Source of the DNA: Franzmannia pantelleriensis | GTDB taxonomy: Bacteria; Pseudomonadota; Gammaproteobacteria; Pseudomonadales; Halomonadaceae | Length of the DNA stretch: 56,785 nt | Reading direction: 5' to 3' | Assembly: GCF_900102875.1 (NCBI RefSeq) | Contig: NZ_FNGH01000001.1 | Location: 95,873-152,657, forward strand | Part shown: positions 5,318-42,936 of the stretch, piece after piece | How positions within the stretch are numbered: the stretch's first letter is position 1 | How the letters are laid out: every line of letters starts with the position of its first letter | Made by a program: the position numbers and the translations under genes | Notes under the pieces: generated by a model | The model's database searches: none | The model's input: the letters and a program-made list of their open reading frames with translations, nothing else | Told to the model about the DNA's origin: nothing

Positions 5318-5519
5318 AACCCCATCGAGACTGAAGTCTCTCCCACATTGGCCGAGGCGCCGCCCCAAGTGTAGGAGCGACTTCAGTCGCGATTGCAGCG
5401 CGCAGCGCTGCTTGGATAGATCCACCCCCATCGAGACTGACGTCTCTCTCACATTGGCCGAGGCGCCGGCCCCCAGTGTGGGAGCGAATTCATTCGCGAT
5501 TGCAGCGCGCAGCGCTGCC
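5318..5519. repeat. REPIN cluster upstream of the RAYT gene
   Basis: Two REPIN-like units. In each, a left arm with head GAGACTGAAGTCTC or a close variant faces a right arm with head GCGACT-TC-AGTCGC or GCGAAT-TC-ATTCGC plus the AGCGCTGC stem. The arms are joined by GGCGCC-centred spacers. Confidence 0.85.
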
Positions 5520-5577
5520 TGCCCTCCATGCAGAAGGCGTCTATGCTCAACTAACAAGGAGAGTAGGGGGCGTTACC

Positions 5578-6039
5578 ATGGAAAAGGATCAGCCGCACAG
5601 CCATGCTCTGCGTCGTGGCCGCATGTCTCTGCATCGCCAGGCTTATCTCATCACGACCTGCACCCATCAGAGATTGCCCTTGCTGGATTCTTGGCCAATC
5701 GCAAGGCATGTGGTAAAGGAAATGCAATCATTGGAGAAAGAAGGCTGGGTCTCGTCGCTCTCCTACGTGATTATGCCAGACCACTTGCACTGGCTGTTTA
5801 TGCTTGATCAGGCTGAACTCGATGCTGTGGTGAAGCGATTGAAAGGCCGCTCGGCGAGAGCTATTAATTCCCACCTCCATCGTCGAGGGTCTGTGTGGCA
5901 ACAGGGTTATCATGATCGCGCTCTGAGGCGCGAGGAAGACCTGCGCAGCGTTGCGCGTTATATAGTCGCCAATCCCTTGAGGGCGGGGCTGGTGGACGAT
6001 ATTGGCAAATACCCGCTTTGGGATGCGATGTGGCTATAA
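5578..6039 (+). CDS. REP-associated tyrosine transposase (RAYT, Y1_Tnp family)
   Basis: 153 residues. The HUH metal motif is in IMPDHLHWLF (residues 65-74), the conserved WQQGYHDRAL follows at 107-116, and Tyr128 in ARYIVANPLRAGLV is the probable nucleophile. RAYTs are single-strand transposases that cut at REP hairpins and are held responsible for REPIN spread. I chose the ATG at 5578 because upstream in-frame codons lie in REP sequence; AGGAGAGTAGGGGG precedes it. REPINs flank it on both sides, the downstream one beginning at the first base after the stop codon. All catalytic residues appear present, so it is probably active or recently so. Its origin of spread cannot be judged from one window. 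Confidence 0.9.
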   Translation: MEKDQPHSHALRRGRMSLHRQAYLITTCTHQRLPLLDSWPIARHVVKEMQSLEKEGWVSSLSYVIMPDHLHWLFMLDQAELDAVVKRLKGRSARAINSHLHRRGSVWQQGYHDRALRREEDLRSVARYIVANPLRAGLVDDIGKYPLWDAMWL

Positions 6040-6172
6040 CCCATCGAGACTAAAGTCTCTCCCACATTTGCCTTGGCGCCGGCTCCCAGTGTTGTAGGTA
6101 ATCCATTCCCACATTGGCCTTGGCCCCCAGTGTGGGAGCGAATTCATTCGCGATGCAGCGCGCAGCGCTGCT
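6040..6172. repeat. REPIN directly after the RAYT stop codon
   Basis: Begins with the GAGACT-AA-AGTCTC head immediately after the stop codon and ends with the GCGAAT/ATTCGC head and AGCGCTGC stem. A short extra half-copy lies in the middle. Confidence 0.85.
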
Positions 6173-6178
6173 GGGGAA

Positions 6179-6472
6179 TTACTGCTCCGGCGGTGTGTCG
6201 TGGCGCATTGCCACGATGTCGGTTTCGCTCAGGCCGGTAGCCTCGGCGATCTGGGCATCGCTGAGCGTGCGGAGAGCAATCAGCCTGCGGGCGATATCAC
6301 GCGAGGTTTCTTGGCGTCCTTCTTGGCGTCCTTCCAGCCGTTCCTTCTTGGCCCAGCTTTCGAGTTTCTCTGCCAGCATATCTTTATCCTCTACCAGACT
6401 GTTGAGTTGCTCCAGGTTGACGCCTGCACCAAGCCACTGCAGGTGGCGCTTTAGCCAGCGGGTAATGATGGC
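6179..6472 (-). pseudogene. Truncated rpn (YhgA-like nuclease) fragment, C-terminal part
   Basis: Nearly identical to the 3' end of the complete rpn gene downstream. It covers the stretch from LKRHLQWLGAGVNLE to the stop codon and then breaks off into REP sequence at about 6472. Catalytic residues are missing. It carries only two copies of the 4-residue EGRQ repeat against five in the complete gene, a 36-bp difference. An open frame of 66 codons (complement 6379 to 6179) remains, starting at MLAEKLES behind AGAGG with an 8-nt spacer, so it may still make the short C-terminal protein. The adjoining REPIN is duplicated with it. Confidence 0.85.
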
Positions 6473-6772
6473 GCCGGCCCCCAGTGTTGTAGGGAATCCA
6501 TTCCCACATTTGCCTTGGCGCCGGCTCCCAGTGTGGGAGCGGTTTCAACCGCGATTGCAGCACGCAGCGCTGCTGGGGTAGGGCAACCCCATCGAGACTA
6601 AAGTCTCTCCCACATTGGCCTTGGCGCCGGCTCCCAGTGTTGTAGTCAATCCATTCCCATATCTGCCTTGGCCTCGGCCCCAGTGTTGTAGGTAATCCAT
6701 TCCCACATTGGCCTTGGCACCACTCCAAGTGTGGGAGCGAATTCATTCGCGATGCAGCGCGCAGCGCTGCTG
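6473..6772. repeat. REPIN cluster between rpn copies
   Basis: Several REP arms in alternating orientation, including a fully paired GCGGTT-TC-AACCGC head, GAGACT-AA-AGTCTC and GCGAAT-TC-ATTCGC, plus degenerate half-copies. Ends a few bases before the complement-strand rpn stop codon. Confidence 0.85.
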
Positions 6773-6777
6773 GGGAA

Positions 6778-7014
6778 TTACTGCTCCGGCGGTGTGTCGT
6801 GGCGCATTGCCACGATGTCGGTTTCGCTCAGGCCGGTAGCCTCGGCGATCTGGGCATCGCTGAGCGTGCGGAGAGCAATCAGCCTGCGGGCGATATCACG
6901 CGAGGTTTCTTGGCGGCCTTCTAGTCGACCTTCTTGGCGTCCTTCTTGGCGTCCTTCTTGGCGTCCTTCCAGCCGTTCCTTCTTGGCCCAGCTTTCGAGT
7001 TTCTCTGCCAGCAT
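6778..7014 (-). CDS. Candidate intragenic short protein (RpnS-like) within rpn
   Basis: An in-frame internal start inside the rpn gene: AGAGG, 8 nt, then ATG (MLAEKLES), giving 78 residues made of the EGRQ repeats and the C-terminal domain. E. coli Rpn loci are known to make such short C-terminal proteins from inside the gene, and these inhibit the long toxic nuclease. The same SD-spacer-ATG is kept in two orphan fragments of the family in this window. Translation itself is inferred, not seen. Confidence 0.5.
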   Translation of the reverse strand: MLAEKLESWAKKERLEGRQEGRQEGRQEGRLEGRQETSRDIARRLIALRTLSDAQIAEATGLSETDIVAMRHDTPPEQ

Positions 7015-7758
7015 ATCTTTATCCTCTACCAGACTGTTGAGCTGCTCCAGGTTGACGCCTGCACCAAGCCACTGCAGGTGGCGCTTGAGCCAGCGGGTAA
7101 TGATGGCGTCGGTGCGCTCCTTGTGGGGATCGTTCTGAATGATCGCCACAATACGGTCGACAGCCCGCTGCAGCGCGTGGCGGTCAGCCGTGGCGTTCTC
7201 GATGCCGAACACACCGCTGAGGGGCGTGTGGCGCTTCAACAGTTCCTCGTCAGTATAGCGTCCTTCGTCGATCAGGTAGTAGCGCAGGTGTGGCTGGTAG
7301 ACTCGCAGGAAGGCGGGCGGTTCCGGCTGCACCATGTCGTAGATGTCCTGCCGGGCCGACCAGCGCTGGCTGCCGTTGTAGAGCACGATGGGCAGTATCG
7401 GCGGCAGCCCCTTGCTCGGGGTTGTGGTCCTCTGCTTGAGCAGGTGATCGTAGAAACAGGCCACGTAGTGCATCAGGCGGATCGGCATGGTGTGATCCAC
7501 CGCCGACTGAAACTCCAACAAAATATACAGGAACACCTGCTGCCTGGCGCCCTGCCAGCTGATATCGACCGACCACACCACGTCCTCGAATTTCTCCTCG
7601 AACAGCGGTGTGATGTAGTTACCGTTGTGACTTTCCAGGGTAGTAAAGTCCATCAGCTCGGCGATCTCGGTGGGGGCAAAGCCTTCGATTAGCTGCTGGA
7701 CGAACTCCGGGTAGCTGAACAGCTCCTTGTAGCCGGTATCGTGGTGGTTGCTGACCAT
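6778..7758 (-). CDS. Rpn-family nuclease / YhgA-like putative transposase
   Basis: 326 residues. N-terminal PD-(D/E)XK nuclease domain: YKELFSYPEFVQQLI near 10-24, probable Asp59 in FEDVVW, and the ExQ motif in LLEFQS (Glu82, Gln84). A middle region resembles the PF04754 family, followed by a repeat of five EGRQ-like tetrapeptides and a small C-terminal helical domain. E. coli Rpn proteins are DNA endonucleases that raise recombination and act in phage defence. The gene stands alone between REPIN clusters. All expected catalytic residues are present. A Met at 249 with its own Shine-Dalgarno could start a short second product (listed separately). Confidence 0.85.
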   Translation of the reverse strand: MVSNHHDTGYKELFSYPEFVQQLIEGFAPTEIAELMDFTTLESHNGNYITPLFEEKFEDVVWSVDISWQGARQQVFLYILLEFQSAVDHTMPIRLMHYVACFYDHLLKQRTTTPSKGLPPILPIVLYNGSQRWSARQDIYDMVQPEPPAFLRVYQPHLRYYLIDEGRYTDEELLKRHTPLSGVFGIENATADRHALQRAVDRIVAIIQNDPHKERTDAIITRWLKRHLQWLGAGVNLEQLNSLVEDKDMLAEKLESWAKKERLEGRQEGRQEGRQEGRLEGRQETSRDIARRLIALRTLSDAQIAEATGLSETDIVAMRHDTPPEQ

Positions 7759-7829
7759 GGGGCACCATCTGCAAGTTACTGGTTAAATATACAGCATATG
7801 CGCGTTGCAGCATAATGCCACTCGACCAA

Positions 7830-7961
7830 CCCATCGAGACTAAAGTCTCTCCCACATTTGCCTTGGCGCCGGCTCCCAGTGTTGTAGTCAATCCATTCCC
7901 ATATCTGCCTTGCCCCAGTGTGGGAGCGAATTCATTCGCGATGCAGCGCGCAGCGCTGCCT
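7830..7961. repeat. REPIN upstream of the first HEPN-MNT pair
   Basis: GAGACT-AA-AGTCTC head facing a GCGAAT-TC-ATTCGC head with the AGCGCTGC stem; a degenerate half-copy lies between. Confidence 0.85.
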
Positions 7962-8012
7962 GCTGAGCCCTATGTTAGGATTAGGCCATAGGAGAGTAGG
8001 GGGAGTGGCGTA

Positions 8013-8420
8013 ATGAGCGAGCAGGATCCCGTCCTGGCCAAGATCGTCGAACTTGGTGCCGCCGATGGCCAGCTCGATGTGGTGTGGTTGTACGGTTCGC
8101 GGGCCAAGGGTGCCCATGCTGAATCCAGCGATTACGACCTGGCGGTGGCATTTCGCGACGCTGTTGAACCGCCGCTGGAGCGCCGCCTGCGCCCCGAACT
8201 GCTGGCACAGCAGTGGGCAGATTCGCTAGGGCTGGCCGACGATATGCTCTCCATCGTCGATATCAATCACGCGCCGCTGCCGCTGGCCATGGCGGTGATT
8301 CGCACTGGCCGCGCGATCTGGGTACGCAGCCCGTTGCGGCTGGCCAGGGAAGAGAACCGCATTACCTCGATGTGGGAACTCGACTATCTATATCACCAGC
8401 GCCATTATGGCGTGTCGTGA
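8013..8420 (+). CDS. MntA-type nucleotidyltransferase antitoxin
   Basis: 135 residues with the minimal nucleotidyltransferase signature: Gly28-Ser29, then Asp40 and Asp42 (GSRAKGAHAESSDYDL), the GS-x10-DxD pattern. In HEPN-MNT toxin-antitoxin systems this enzyme adds AMP to the Tyr of the partner HEPN RNase and so silences it. The partner gene follows with an 8-nt gap. The leader AGGAGAGTAGGGGG is the same 14 nt found before the RAYT gene. The pair is bracketed by REPINs, consistent with an accessory insertion. Confidence 0.85.
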   Translation: MSEQDPVLAKIVELGAADGQLDVVWLYGSRAKGAHAESSDYDLAVAFRDAVEPPLERRLRPELLAQQWADSLGLADDMLSIVDINHAPLPLAMAVIRTGRAIWVRSPLRLAREENRITSMWELDYLYHQRHYGVS

Positions 8421-8428
8421 CACTATGG

Positions 8429-8860
8429 ATGACAGCGATGGAGCCTGAGTACGTTGCATCGATGCGTGAGCACTTGGCTCGCCTGGGTGAAGAGCTTCAA
8501 CAGCTGCACGAACTGCTCGTGGCAGAGCGCGTGTTGTCACCCCTCGTGTATCGTGCCGCGGAGCGTAATCTGCAGCTGCTGACAGAAGCCTGTATAGGCA
8601 TCGCCAAGCAAACGCTCAAGGCCCAAGGCGTTGTCGCGCCCAGCGACGCCCGCCAGGCCTTTGCCAAGTTACGCAGTATGGGGCTGGACGCCACCGAGGC
8701 CGAATGGCCCAAGATCATTGGCCTTCGCAACGCGCTGGTGCATGACTACCTCAATCTCGATGAACGCATCGTGCTCGATATCATCCGTGAACAGCGCTAC
8801 CAGCTACTGCTCGACTTTGCCGATCAGCGCCTCGCTGACCCACAACCCCATCGAGACTAA
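8429..8860 (+). CDS. HepT-type HEPN RNase toxin
   Basis: 143 residues, helical, with the HEPN active-site motif R-x4-H-x-Y: Arg100, His105, Tyr107 (RNALVHDY). HepT proteins are metal-independent RNases kept inactive by AMPylation of that Tyr. ATGs at 8429 and 8438 are both possible; the first is used. The last residues PHRD and the TAA stop lie in the adjoining REPIN, so repeat DNA supplies the C terminus, probably replacing an original end. The catalytic motif is well upstream of that tail and appears intact. Confidence 0.85.
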   Translation: MTAMEPEYVASMREHLARLGEELQQLHELLVAERVLSPLVYRAAERNLQLLTEACIGIAKQTLKAQGVVAPSDARQAFAKLRSMGLDATEAEWPKIIGLRNALVHDYLNLDERIVLDIIREQRYQLLLDFADQRLADPQPHRD

Positions 8861-9043
8861 AGTCTCTCCCACATTGGCTTTGGCGCCACACTCCGTGTAG
8901 GAGCGAATTCATTCGCGATGCAGCGCGCAGCGCTGCTGGGGTAGGGCAACCCCATCGAGACTAAAGTCTCTCCCACATTGGCCTTGGCCTCGGCCCCCAG
9001 TGTGGGAGCGAATTCATTCGCGATTGCAGCGCGTAGCGCTGCC
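8846..9043. repeat. REPIN cluster between hepT and the autotransporter gene
   Basis: Two units with GAGACT-AA-AGTCTC and GCGAAT-TC-ATTCGC heads. The left edge overlaps the 3' end of hepT and provides its stop codon; the right edge ends 7 nt before the complement-strand stop codon of the autotransporter. Confidence 0.85.
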
Positions 9044-9050
9044 GGTTTGG

Positions 9051-40890: not shown

Positions 40891-41298
40891 GGCAGCGCTG
40901 CGCGCTGCAATCGCGAGTGAAGTCGCTCCCACACTGGGAGCGGCGCCAAGGCCAATGTAGGAGAGACGTCAGTCTCGATGGGGTTGGGTTGTCTTGGCCT
41001 GGCAGCGCTGCGCGCTGCAATCGCGAATGAGGTCGCTCCCACACTGGGAGCGGCGCCAAGGCCAATGTAGGAGAGACGTTAGTCTCGATGGGGTTGGGTT
41101 GTCTTGGCCTGGCAGCGCTGCGCGCTGCAATCGCGAATGAGGTCGCTCCCACACTGGGAGCGGCGCCAAGGCCAATGTAGGAGAGACGTCAGTCTCGATG
41201 GGGTTGGGTTGTCTTGGCCTGGCAGCGCTGCGCGCTGCAATCGCGAATGAATTCGCTCCCACACTGGGCCGGCGCCAAGGCCAATGTAGGAGAGAGGG
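40891..41298. repeat. 110-bp tandem REPIN array A
   Basis: Four copies starting at 40891, 41001, 41111 and 41221, exactly 110 bp apart, the last cut short. Each copy holds an AGCGCTGCGCGCTGC stem, a GCGAATGAGGTCGC-type head, a GGCGCC centre, a GAGACGTCAGTCTC-type head and the linker GGTTGGGTTGTCTTGGCCT. Copies differ at only a few positions, indicating recent tandem duplication. Confidence 0.9.
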
Positions 41299-41304
41299 GC
41301 GCTA

Positions 41305-41360
41305 GGCTCAAGCGCCACCTGCAGTGGCTTGGCGCAGGCGTAAACTTGGAGCGGCTCAAC
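41305..41360 (+). pseudogene. rpn fragment left of the ccdAB insertion
   Basis: 56 bp matching the rpn coding sequence for LKRHLQWLGAGVNLE and the next few codons, ending in CTCAAC. It is cut by REP sequence on the left and by the ccdAB module on the right. The continuing sequence reappears at 41996. Confidence 0.8.
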
Positions 41361-41374
41361 GTTGAATCCTCTTG

Positions 41375-41394
41375 AATGCGCACGGTAATGCGCA
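41375..41394. promoter_or_regulatory. Direct repeats upstream of ccdA (candidate CcdAB operator)
   Basis: AATGCGCA occurs twice, 12 bp apart, each containing the palindrome TGCGCA. They lie 41 nt before the ccdA start, where CcdA-CcdB complexes usually bind to repress their own promoter. Binding is inferred. Confidence 0.4.
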
Positions 41395-41434
41395 TAAGCT
41401 GGAAAATGCATGTACCAGCCTATCGGAGGCTGCA

Positions 41435-41680
41435 ATGGCCGAACTCTACAACACAGCCGCACCCAAAAAAGCAGCAAACTTGTCAGTTAACAGTGACCTG
41501 CTTAGCAAAACCCGGGATCTGAACATTAACCTGTCAGCAACCCTGGAGCGAGCTCTGAAAGAAGAGCTTTGCAAACGCGAAGCGGCTCAATGGGTCGAAG
41601 AGAATCGCGCTGCAATCAGAAGCTACAATGAGTTTGTCGAGCAACATGGATGCTTCGGTGACGAATTCAGGGAGTTTTGA
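41435..41680 (+). CDS. ccdA: CcdA-type antitoxin
   Basis: 81 residues. N-terminal ribbon-helix-helix DNA-binding part (AANLSVNSDLLSKTRDLNIN) and an unstructured acidic C-terminal tail (NEFVEQHGCFGDEFREF) that wraps the toxin, as in F-plasmid CcdA. GGAGG with a 6-nt spacer supports this ATG. The stop overlaps the ccdB start (TGATG). It would neutralise CcdB and repress the operon. Confidence 0.9.
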   Translation: MAELYNTAAPKKAANLSVNSDLLSKTRDLNINLSATLERALKEELCKREAAQWVEENRAAIRSYNEFVEQHGCFGDEFREF

Positions 41681-41997
41681 TGGCGCAGTTCGATGTTTAC
41701 CCCAACCCAAGCAAAACCAGCAAAACTCAATATCCCTACCTCGTCGATATTCAAAGTGGCCTCCTGACAGATTTGGCAACTCGTATCGTTATTCCTCTGG
41801 GCAAATATGCAGCATTTGGGAGCCAGTCGATGCGAGGCCTCACGCCTGAGATATCGTTCGGCGAACAGCAACTGCTGTTAGTGACTCCTCAAATTTCATC
41901 GGTGCCAGAAAAACACCTTAAAAATCCCGTCGGCTCCCTTTCACATTTTAGGGATCAGATTGTTGCGGCACTGGATCTCGCGGTCACTGGCATTTAA
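41680..41997 (+). CDS. ccdB: CcdB-type gyrase-poison toxin
   Basis: 105 residues: AQFDVYPNPSKTSKTQYPYLVDIQS at the start, then RIVIPL and a C-terminal helix ending in VTGI, matching CcdB throughout. CcdB traps DNA gyrase on cut DNA. The final Gly-Ile of F-plasmid CcdB is kept, but the Trp before it is Thr here. Its TAA stop codon uses two bases of the rpn sequence that follows, so the module ends exactly at the insertion junction. Confidence 0.88.
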   Translation: MAQFDVYPNPSKTSKTQYPYLVDIQSGLLTDLATRIVIPLGKYAAFGSQSMRGLTPEISFGEQQLLLVTPQISSVPEKHLKNPVGSLSHFRDQIVAALDLAVTGI

Positions 41998-42202
41998 CAG
42001 TCTGGTAGAGGATAAAGATATGCTGGCAGAGAAACTCGAAAGCTGGGCGAAGAAGGAACGACTGGAAGGGCGCCAAGAAGGTCGTCAGGAGACGGCCCGC
42101 AACTTGATCGCCCGCACCGAGATGGACGATCAGATGATTGCCGAGATTTCCGGCCTACCGCGCGAGGTTATCGCCACACTGCGCGCCGAGAGCCAGCGCT
42201 GA
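41996..42202 (+). pseudogene. rpn fragment right of ccdAB, with intact short C-terminal frame
   Basis: Continues the broken rpn gene with AACAGTCTGGTAGAGGAT. From the ATG at 42020 (MLAEKLES), preceded by AGAGG and 8 nt, a frame of 60 codons runs to a natural stop. It keeps two EGRQ repeats; the end (TEMDDQMIAEISGLPREVIA) differs from the complete rpn gene, so it derives from another family member rather than a recent copy. The nuclease domain is gone. It may make an orphan RpnS-like protein. Confidence 0.75.
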
Positions 42203-42212
42203 GGCGTTAATC

Positions 42213-42670
42213 GGCAGCGCTGCGCACTGCAATCGCGAATGAATTCGCTCCCACACTGGGAGTGGCGCCACTGGCTAGTGTAGGAGCGACTTCAGTCGCG
42301 ATGGGGTTGACCAACAGTGCTGCGCGCTGCAATCGCGAATGGATTCGCTCCCACACTGGGAGTGGCGCCACTGGCTAATGTAGGAGCGACGTCAGTCGCG
42401 ATGGGGTTGGGTTGTCTTGGCCTGGCAGCGCTGCGCGCTGCAATCGCGAATGAATTCGCTCCTACACTGGGAGTGGCGCCAAGGCCAATGTAGGAGAGAC
42501 GTCAGTCGCGATGGGGTTGGGTTGTCTTGGCCTGGCAGCGCTACGCGCTGCATCGCGAATGAATTCGCTCCCACACTGGGAGTGGCGCCAAGGCCAATGT
42601 AGGAGAGACGTCAGTCTCGATGGGGTTGGGTTGTCTTGGCCTGGGCAGCGCTGCGCGCTGCATCGCATAT
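42213..42670. repeat. 110-bp tandem REPIN array B
   Basis: Five copies beginning near 42213, 42314, 42424, 42534 and 42643, with the same unit and linker as array A. Heads include GCGAAT/ATTCGC, GCGACT/AGTCGC and GAGACGTCAGTCTC. With array A it flanks the rpn-ccdAB segment on both sides. Confidence 0.9.
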
Positions 42671-42936
42671 GAATTCGCTCTTATACATTCTGAGTCTGGC
42701 TTGCTTGGCATGCTGACGTCGCTATCCGATAGGTCTGGGCGGGGTGGATTCACCATAATCTTGATGCTGATCAAGAAGTGGGTGGCAGCGCTCGGTTAGC
42801 CTCACGGGCACGAGGATAGCGCGTCGCCATGATCGCGGATCCTGGCCACCCATCCAGGCGGCACATAACAATATGGGCATGGCGTCGGGCGATTGCCCCT
42901 GCGCAGGGACATACCCCATCTTCCGAGATTGCCAGC

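Follow-up and report, generated by a model that had tools for sequence, protein, structure and literature searches.

E. coli rpn genes encode a full-length protein that is a toxic DNase and, from an internal start in the same frame, a tail that binds and blocks it (PMC10327210). The RpnA complex consists of two long and two short chains. The short form, RpnS, is a three-helix bundle with variable four-residue repeats in its first helix (PMC10327210). RpnS expression was also reported for a cloned C. difficile gene, and plasmid-encoded RpnP2 protects against some phages (PMC10327210). The stretch of Franzmannia pantelleriensis DNA analyzed here (56,785 nt, hereafter the window) contains an rpn gene with an internal in-frame ATG preceded by a Shine-Dalgarno (SD) motif. 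Does this gene, too, encode its own antitoxin? An earlier reading of the letters (the original prediction) proposed that it does, pointing to E. coli, where short same-frame proteins block the toxic long form. This account of E. coli agrees with PMC10327210.

A predicted Rpn-family nuclease gene

The 326-residue product of rpn (RpnL) was matched by profile search to PF04754 over residues 4–214 (E = 1.1e-28) and to TIGR01784 (E = 5.2e-18). Residues D59, E82 and Q84 were invariant in all 75 full-length homologs; we take this D59/E82-x-Q84 arrangement to be the active site of RpnL, with a catalytic role. By its sequence, rpn is an Rpn-family nuclease gene with an RpnL-type domain. It was the sole gene with a PF04754 match at E ≤ 0.001 among the matches listed for the 4.4-Mb host genome. 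Halomonas salipaludis and H. socia are the closest named relatives by RpnL protein among the best 80 of 131 loci. PADLOC returned no match. An AlphaFold2 model of RpnL, based on 17 sequences, was of middling quality (mean pLDDT 74.7). A Foldseek search of the PDB with this model revealed no solved fold at E ≤ 0.001, and restriction enzymes MspJI and AspBHI appeared among the weak matches only. The features of the locus and of the related loci in the window are collected in Table 1.

Table 1. Positions of rpn, its predicted antitoxin and the tail copies, numbered from the first letter of the window
Feature	Positions	Strand	Basis
rpn, predicted full-length nuclease RpnL, 326 aa, ATG at 7758	6778..7758	-	PF04754, TIGR01784 matches; D59, E82, Q84 in 75/75 homologs
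rpnS, predicted intragenic antitoxin, 78 aa, internal ATG at 7014	6778..7014	-	ATG in 75/75 homologs, SD conserved; AlphaFold2 helices
Internal SD AGAGG, 8 nt 5′ of the ATG; GAG is the E245 codon	7023..7027	-	GAG conserved in relatives
Tandem 12-nt (4-aa EGRQ/EGRL) repeats, 5 units	6907..6969	-	Translation; alignment with the 2-unit copy
Direct duplicate of the tail of rpn, lacking 36 nt, with REP-like repeats on both sides	6126..6477	-	Sequence comparison
Solitary rpnS copy 1, 66 aa; the same SD-ATG is the sole in-frame ATG/GTG/TTG start	6179..6379	-	ORF analysis
Remnant of a third copy of the rpn tail, left side (residues ~224–241)	41307..41360	+	Sequence comparison
ccdA antitoxin gene, inside the split tail copy	41435..41680	+	PF07362, 7.5e-30
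ccdB toxin gene; its TAA abuts the rpnS leader	41680..41997	+	PF01845, 4.2e-32
Solitary rpnS copy 2, 60 aa, 22 nt past ccdB, SD and ATG intact, other C-terminal type	42020..42202	+	ORF, start check

A second toxin-antitoxin pair adjoins rpn. It consists of an MntA-like nucleotidyltransferase (PF18765, 8.1e-14) and a HepT-like RNase (PF01934, 6.2e-22) encoded at 8013–8860 on the plus strand, and among the loci compared it is present only in the host's own genome.

Candidate internal start and tail of the rpn gene

The layout given in the original prediction was confirmed. The in-frame ATG (M249, positions 7014–7012, opening the tail MLAEKLES...) is separated by an 8-nt spacer from AGAGG at 7027–7023, and the tail of 78 residues ends at 6778. 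Since it falls outside the PF04754 match, the short form would be free of the nuclease domain. The word "ideal" used for this start was, however, too strong: the anti-SD duplex has an energy of −5.8 kcal/mol here, compared to −9.3 in most of the 75 relatives, where the motif is GGAGG.

Internal in-frame ATGs with an equally strong SD are not rare in the window: 22 of 228 were found in 30 other long ORFs, selected by hand from its ORF list. When the synonymous codons of rpn were redrawn, an equal or stronger internal site was obtained with P = 0.53. Taken singly, the internal start signal of this gene is unremarkable and within chance. The case for the internal start therefore rests on relatives.

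In the AlphaFold2 model the tail forms one long helix (247–296) and two short ones (301–308 and 312–321), with pLDDT of 57–82 in these blocks. The long helix is predicted to begin at residue 247, which would place the M249 start at the beginning of the tail domain. The four-residue repeats start about 15 residues past M249, and the tails of near relatives (70, 74 and 78 residues) differ in steps of four-residue units. A profile of the tail had no match to PDB entry 7TH0 (RpnAS) at E ≤ 5. For E. coli rpn genes, internal transcription starts were reported (PMC10327210); a crude scan of the coding strand in 6050–8000 detected no σ70-like promoter inside rpn.

Conservation of the internal start among homologs

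To compare the start across relatives we aligned 75 full-length ORFs from the window and the best 80 of 131 loci found in one scan of species genomes, leaving out copies in these loci that were incomplete, frameshifted or truncated at a contig end. The codon in the M249 column is ATG in 75/75 homologs. The E245 codon, which supplies the core of the SD, is GAG in every one of the 75, while 41.4 are expected from the genes' own usage. Sixteen Glu columns were testable and E245 was the only invariant one, the runner-up having 56/70. Divergence did not change this picture: GAG was found in all 51 genes with less than 85% nucleotide identity and in all 18 with less than 70%. Because one of the six peptide patterns used in the 80-locus scan, EDKDMLAE, contains the Met, the ATG count is in part a product of the search; no such bias affects the GAG count, since peptide patterns are degenerate in codons. 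Loci found without patterns (L093–L119) contained 18 full-length genes, all with ATG and all with GAG, and nine N-terminally incomplete matches with ATG in 9/9 and GAG in 8/9; these loci probably share many species with the 80-locus set and are thus a check on the finding method and not a set of independent genes. The one GAA belongs to a gene with an internal TAG stop (L097).

The signal extends beyond the Glu codon. The base preceding the E245 GAG is G in 57/75 genes (41.4 expected), over Val, Met, Thr, Leu and Ala codons. In the 18 distant genes (less than 70% nucleotide identity) the mean SD energy was −8.0, whereas 2000 synonymous redraws averaged −5.2 ± 0.6 and never reached this strength. 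An SD of −5.5 or better preceded all 51 internal starts but just 34 of the 302 other internal ATGs of the same genes. RNA folding in the 40 nt at the internal start was weak (−4.3 versus −7.7 kcal/mol at random codon positions of the same genes). When the start codon closest upstream of D7 was used as the RpnL start, the SD of RpnS was stronger than that of RpnL in 38 of the 51 genes and weaker in 13; the values for the gene in the window are −5.8 and −3.5.

We also looked at 20 genes of another Halomonadaceae subfamily, 34–41% identical to the query and hand-chosen from a family scan. There the block before the Met reads xEVxxM, versus VEDKDM in the main family. GAG stood at the same offset in 20/20 genes and the SD was −6.9 or better in 20/20, while an SD of −5.5 or better preceded 9 of 117 other internal ATGs; since a pattern served to choose the Met in this subfamily, only GAG and the SD are informative. 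Overall, 303 of 682 Glu codons in these genes are GAG. Glu codons located before Val elsewhere are GAG in 13/18 cases, a modest contrast to the 20/20 at the start.

Chance is a fair explanation for the gene of the window taken singly; as the whole explanation it is ruled out by these comparative data. Another reading is that the two residues (Met and Glu) and the codons for them are kept only for a hinge before the long helix of the full-length protein and that no separate RpnS is made. The block on both sides of the Met is indeed also conserved as protein, but the subfamily with different residues has GAGG at the same offset, and in the main family a G tends to precede GAG whichever residue it belongs to. 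Synonymous fixation comparable to that of E245, which ranks 14th of 155 columns for synonymous excess, is seen in other columns: those above it include columns near the start (A251, S242 and L250) and columns far away (T169, S85 and S63). Yet GAG is invariant in full-length genes, whereas Glu codons elsewhere vary, also before Asp, where GAG accounts for 34 of 78 in the 51 genes; for the main family this rules out that the invariant GAG stems from a Glu-Asp codon-context bias. Fisher combination of the per-gene redraw P values for the 51 genes was not significant (0.27), though this combination is blunt, because the V-E-D residues by themselves yield a fair SD. The weak RNA folding at the start and the nuclease-less copies described below, which mostly retain both SD and ATG, also speak against a hinge, and we regard it as a very unlikely sole cause. 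Judged from these alignments, the nucleotides of the internal start are kept more strictly than the protein sequence demands.

Strong synonymous conservation distant from the start was observed at T169, S85, S63 and R94 (at T169, ACT in 55/65 with 6.7 expected). It might reflect another signal in rpn, for example an internal promoter.

Proposed mechanism and comparison with known systems

The original identification of the gene as rpn, and of its tail as an intragenic antitoxin, is supported by the PF04754 nuclease match, the variable four-residue repeats and a start conserved beyond the needs of the protein. Sequence comparison and analogy with E. coli indicate that rpn is very probably an Rpn toxin gene with an intragenic antitoxin, RpnS. 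The full gene would encode RpnL, a DNA-cutting toxin with the PF04754 nuclease domain. A second ribosome start at ATG 7014, with its own SD, would yield RpnS, the helical tail of 78 residues. As in E. coli, RpnS may pair with RpnL through its repeat-bearing first helix and could keep the nuclease inactive until it is released, conceivably during phage infection, with a possible role in phage defense. Two stand-alone tail copies reuse the same start and could yield free RpnS of other lengths.

The locus shares with E. coli RpnL/RpnS systems (RpnA–E, RpnP2) the PF04754 nuclease, an internal start that opens the tail in frame and is preceded by its own SD, and four-residue repeats of variable number soon after the start (defined as 8–20 residues past the Met; about 15 here). 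A long first helix followed by two short ones, here by prediction, and solitary copies elsewhere are also common to both. Unlike the E. coli systems, it has a different tail sequence and an SD core, GAGG, that is fixed in the VEDKDM or xEVxxM block, and it is known from its sequence alone. An intragenic antitoxin, four-residue repeats and solitary downstream copies are all already published for E. coli (PMC10327210). In the open-licence literature, the supplements of PMC10327210 excluded, we found no account of a Halomonas RpnS or of an rpnS behind ccdAB. Intragenic antitoxins, reported from E. coli and C. difficile, are extended by the present data to a halophile family, with nucleotide-level evidence for the start in two subfamilies.

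Solitary copies of the tail

Two solitary rpnS copies in the window had gone unmentioned in the original prediction. The first lies in a direct duplicate (6126–6477) that covers the rpn tail and its downstream flank. The 36 nt missing from the duplicate correspond to three of the five repeat units, and there is no substitution inside the copy-1 ORF. The second belongs to a third tail copy (41307–42202), which a ccdAB pair interrupts between N241 and S242. The pair (41435–41997) resembles type II CcdA/CcdB toxin-antitoxin systems in its matches to PF07362 and PF01845. It is unlike the usual ones in having a third ORF, rpnS, 22 nt after it. Such an rpnS start was found near one of 29 CcdB loci, the one described here, within the flanks compared; the loci came from 26 of 151 Halomonadaceae genomes. 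A widespread three-gene ccdAB-rpnS unit is thus ruled out for the genomes sampled.

Arrays of repeats that we label REP-like surround both rpn loci (5400–9045 and 40900–42680). A gene for a REP-associated tyrosine transposase (5476–6039; NF047646, 4.3e-41) is located next to copy 1.

Among relatives, a match to some part of RpnL was found in 61 of 151 family genomes. From 45 tail-bearing frames, the main gene included, we picked by hand 20 without the nuclease domain or most of it. The start block is present in 17 of these and missing in L048, L074 and L084. Within the 17, ATG is retained in 16 (L054 has ATA) and the SD in all; in five no other in-frame start is available upstream. An N-terminal stub is retained by, or lies next to, three of the 17 frames (one in L009 and two in L031). 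The L091 copy is cut to 23 residues and the L032 copy has an altered end. A second set, which contributed further copies, consisted of 40 fragments, some of them tails on other proteins and two without any match. Losses in this set include a copy without SD (L140), one without SD and ATG (L146) and a degenerate one (L131).

In three loci (L023, L032 and L143) the copy starts directly behind the stop of the preceding rpn, with likeness extending, as judged by eye, from about 24 nt before the ATG. E. coli K-12 ypaA (the second RpnES copy) has the same layout: this copy of the tail has an SD of its own and immediately follows rpnE. It is a pseudogene in the RefSeq annotation, and a tagging experiment revealed the second small copy of RpnE (PMC10327210). 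Helix 1 of ypaA is one four-residue unit longer than that of the rpnE tail, and copy 1 of the window is three units shorter than the rpn tail. Unlike ypaA, copy 1 is located about 400 nt downstream of rpn and is flanked by REP-like repeats, and copy 2 follows ccdAB.

Tail copies also occur directly after a two-gene pair of no named family (L038, L080, L130, L132 (= L104) and L146, the last one decayed). In L130 (115–861) the second ORF of the pair, HTH-like by weak Pfam matches only, continues in frame into an RpnS tail, so that the fused protein has 248 residues. Pfam and NCBIfam gave no support for a HicA-like identity of the first gene in the L038 pair. The orthologous locus of H. salipaludis (L009), recognized by its autotransporter neighbor, has lost residues ~11–161 of rpn in frame and kept the tail with its start. 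The orthologous locus of H. socia (L014) contains two full-length rpn genes in tandem. RpnS-like tails were also seen on other, apparently unrelated long proteins (L039, L066 and L092).

Repeat number and the role of solitary copies

One added repeat abolished recognition in the case of E. coli RpnC (PMC10327210). By this rule most solitary copies should not inhibit the neighboring toxin. We compared 15 co-resident parent/solitary pairs, 14 from the present set and one from E. coli; several are from strains related to one another, and in L016 and L066 the parent gene is itself interrupted. In 14 pairs the two helices 1 are of unequal length, in 12 of them by a multiple of four residues. The single equal-length pair has unlike C-domains. 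Among these 15, the pairs with C-domains at least 80% identical differ in length in 8/8 cases, each time by a multiple of four residues. At the same level of C-domain identity (at least 80%), equal length was found in 2/21 same-genome pairs and 21/82 different-genome pairs; these are raw counts only, from the 70 tails out of 93 that had an anchor, the other 23 being dropped. With 2/21 versus 21/82, it is not established that equal repeat lengths are specially avoided inside one genome. Repeat length changes fast in general, and selection for mismatch is therefore unproven.

What are the solitary copies for? There is about an even chance that those of the window are functionless, decaying debris of duplication between REP-like repeats, the main gene still making RpnS. 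The absence of any substitution in the copy-1 ORF leaves selection impossible to judge there, and some relatives' copies have lost the ATG, the SD or their length (L054, L091; L131, L140, L146). On the other hand, copies with the block have kept ATG in 16/17 and SD in 17/17, the copies of L023, L032 and L143 are arranged behind rpn as ypaA is behind rpnE, and the second small copy of RpnE does give a tagged product (PMC10327210). The length mismatch can be read both ways. By the published repeat rule (PMC10327210), mismatched copies would not inhibit the resident toxin, as expected of debris. The same mismatch would suit solitary RpnS proteins that are kept as antitoxins against non-resident Rpn alleles, incoming or formerly resident, with the number of four-residue repeats setting specificity. 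We consider such retention possible but improbable. It is consistent with the difference in 14/15 co-resident pairs, 12 by a multiple of four, with the 8/8 pairs whose C-domains are at least 80% identical, with the effect of an added repeat on RpnC (PMC10327210) and with the tail and start that H. salipaludis retains despite the loss of residues ~11–161. General hypervariability may, however, suffice for the 2/21 and 21/82 counts; the only equal-length pair has a different C-domain, and the pairs from related strains and the interrupted parents weaken the series. In its fullest form, which is more doubtful still, the idea is that solitary rpnS genes, the one in third place behind ccdAB among them, make up a repertoire of length-coded antitoxins. 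The number of four-residue repeats would be the allele code, each antitoxin would spare the resident toxin and neutralize Rpn proteins of other length, and the genes would have been recruited behind unrelated toxin-antitoxin pairs.

Length-mismatched stand-alone copies recur among relatives, and this makes the purpose of the rapid change in repeat number directly testable. Full-length Rpn proteins have tails of at least two dissimilar C-terminal types, which looks as though tails had been swapped within the repeats.
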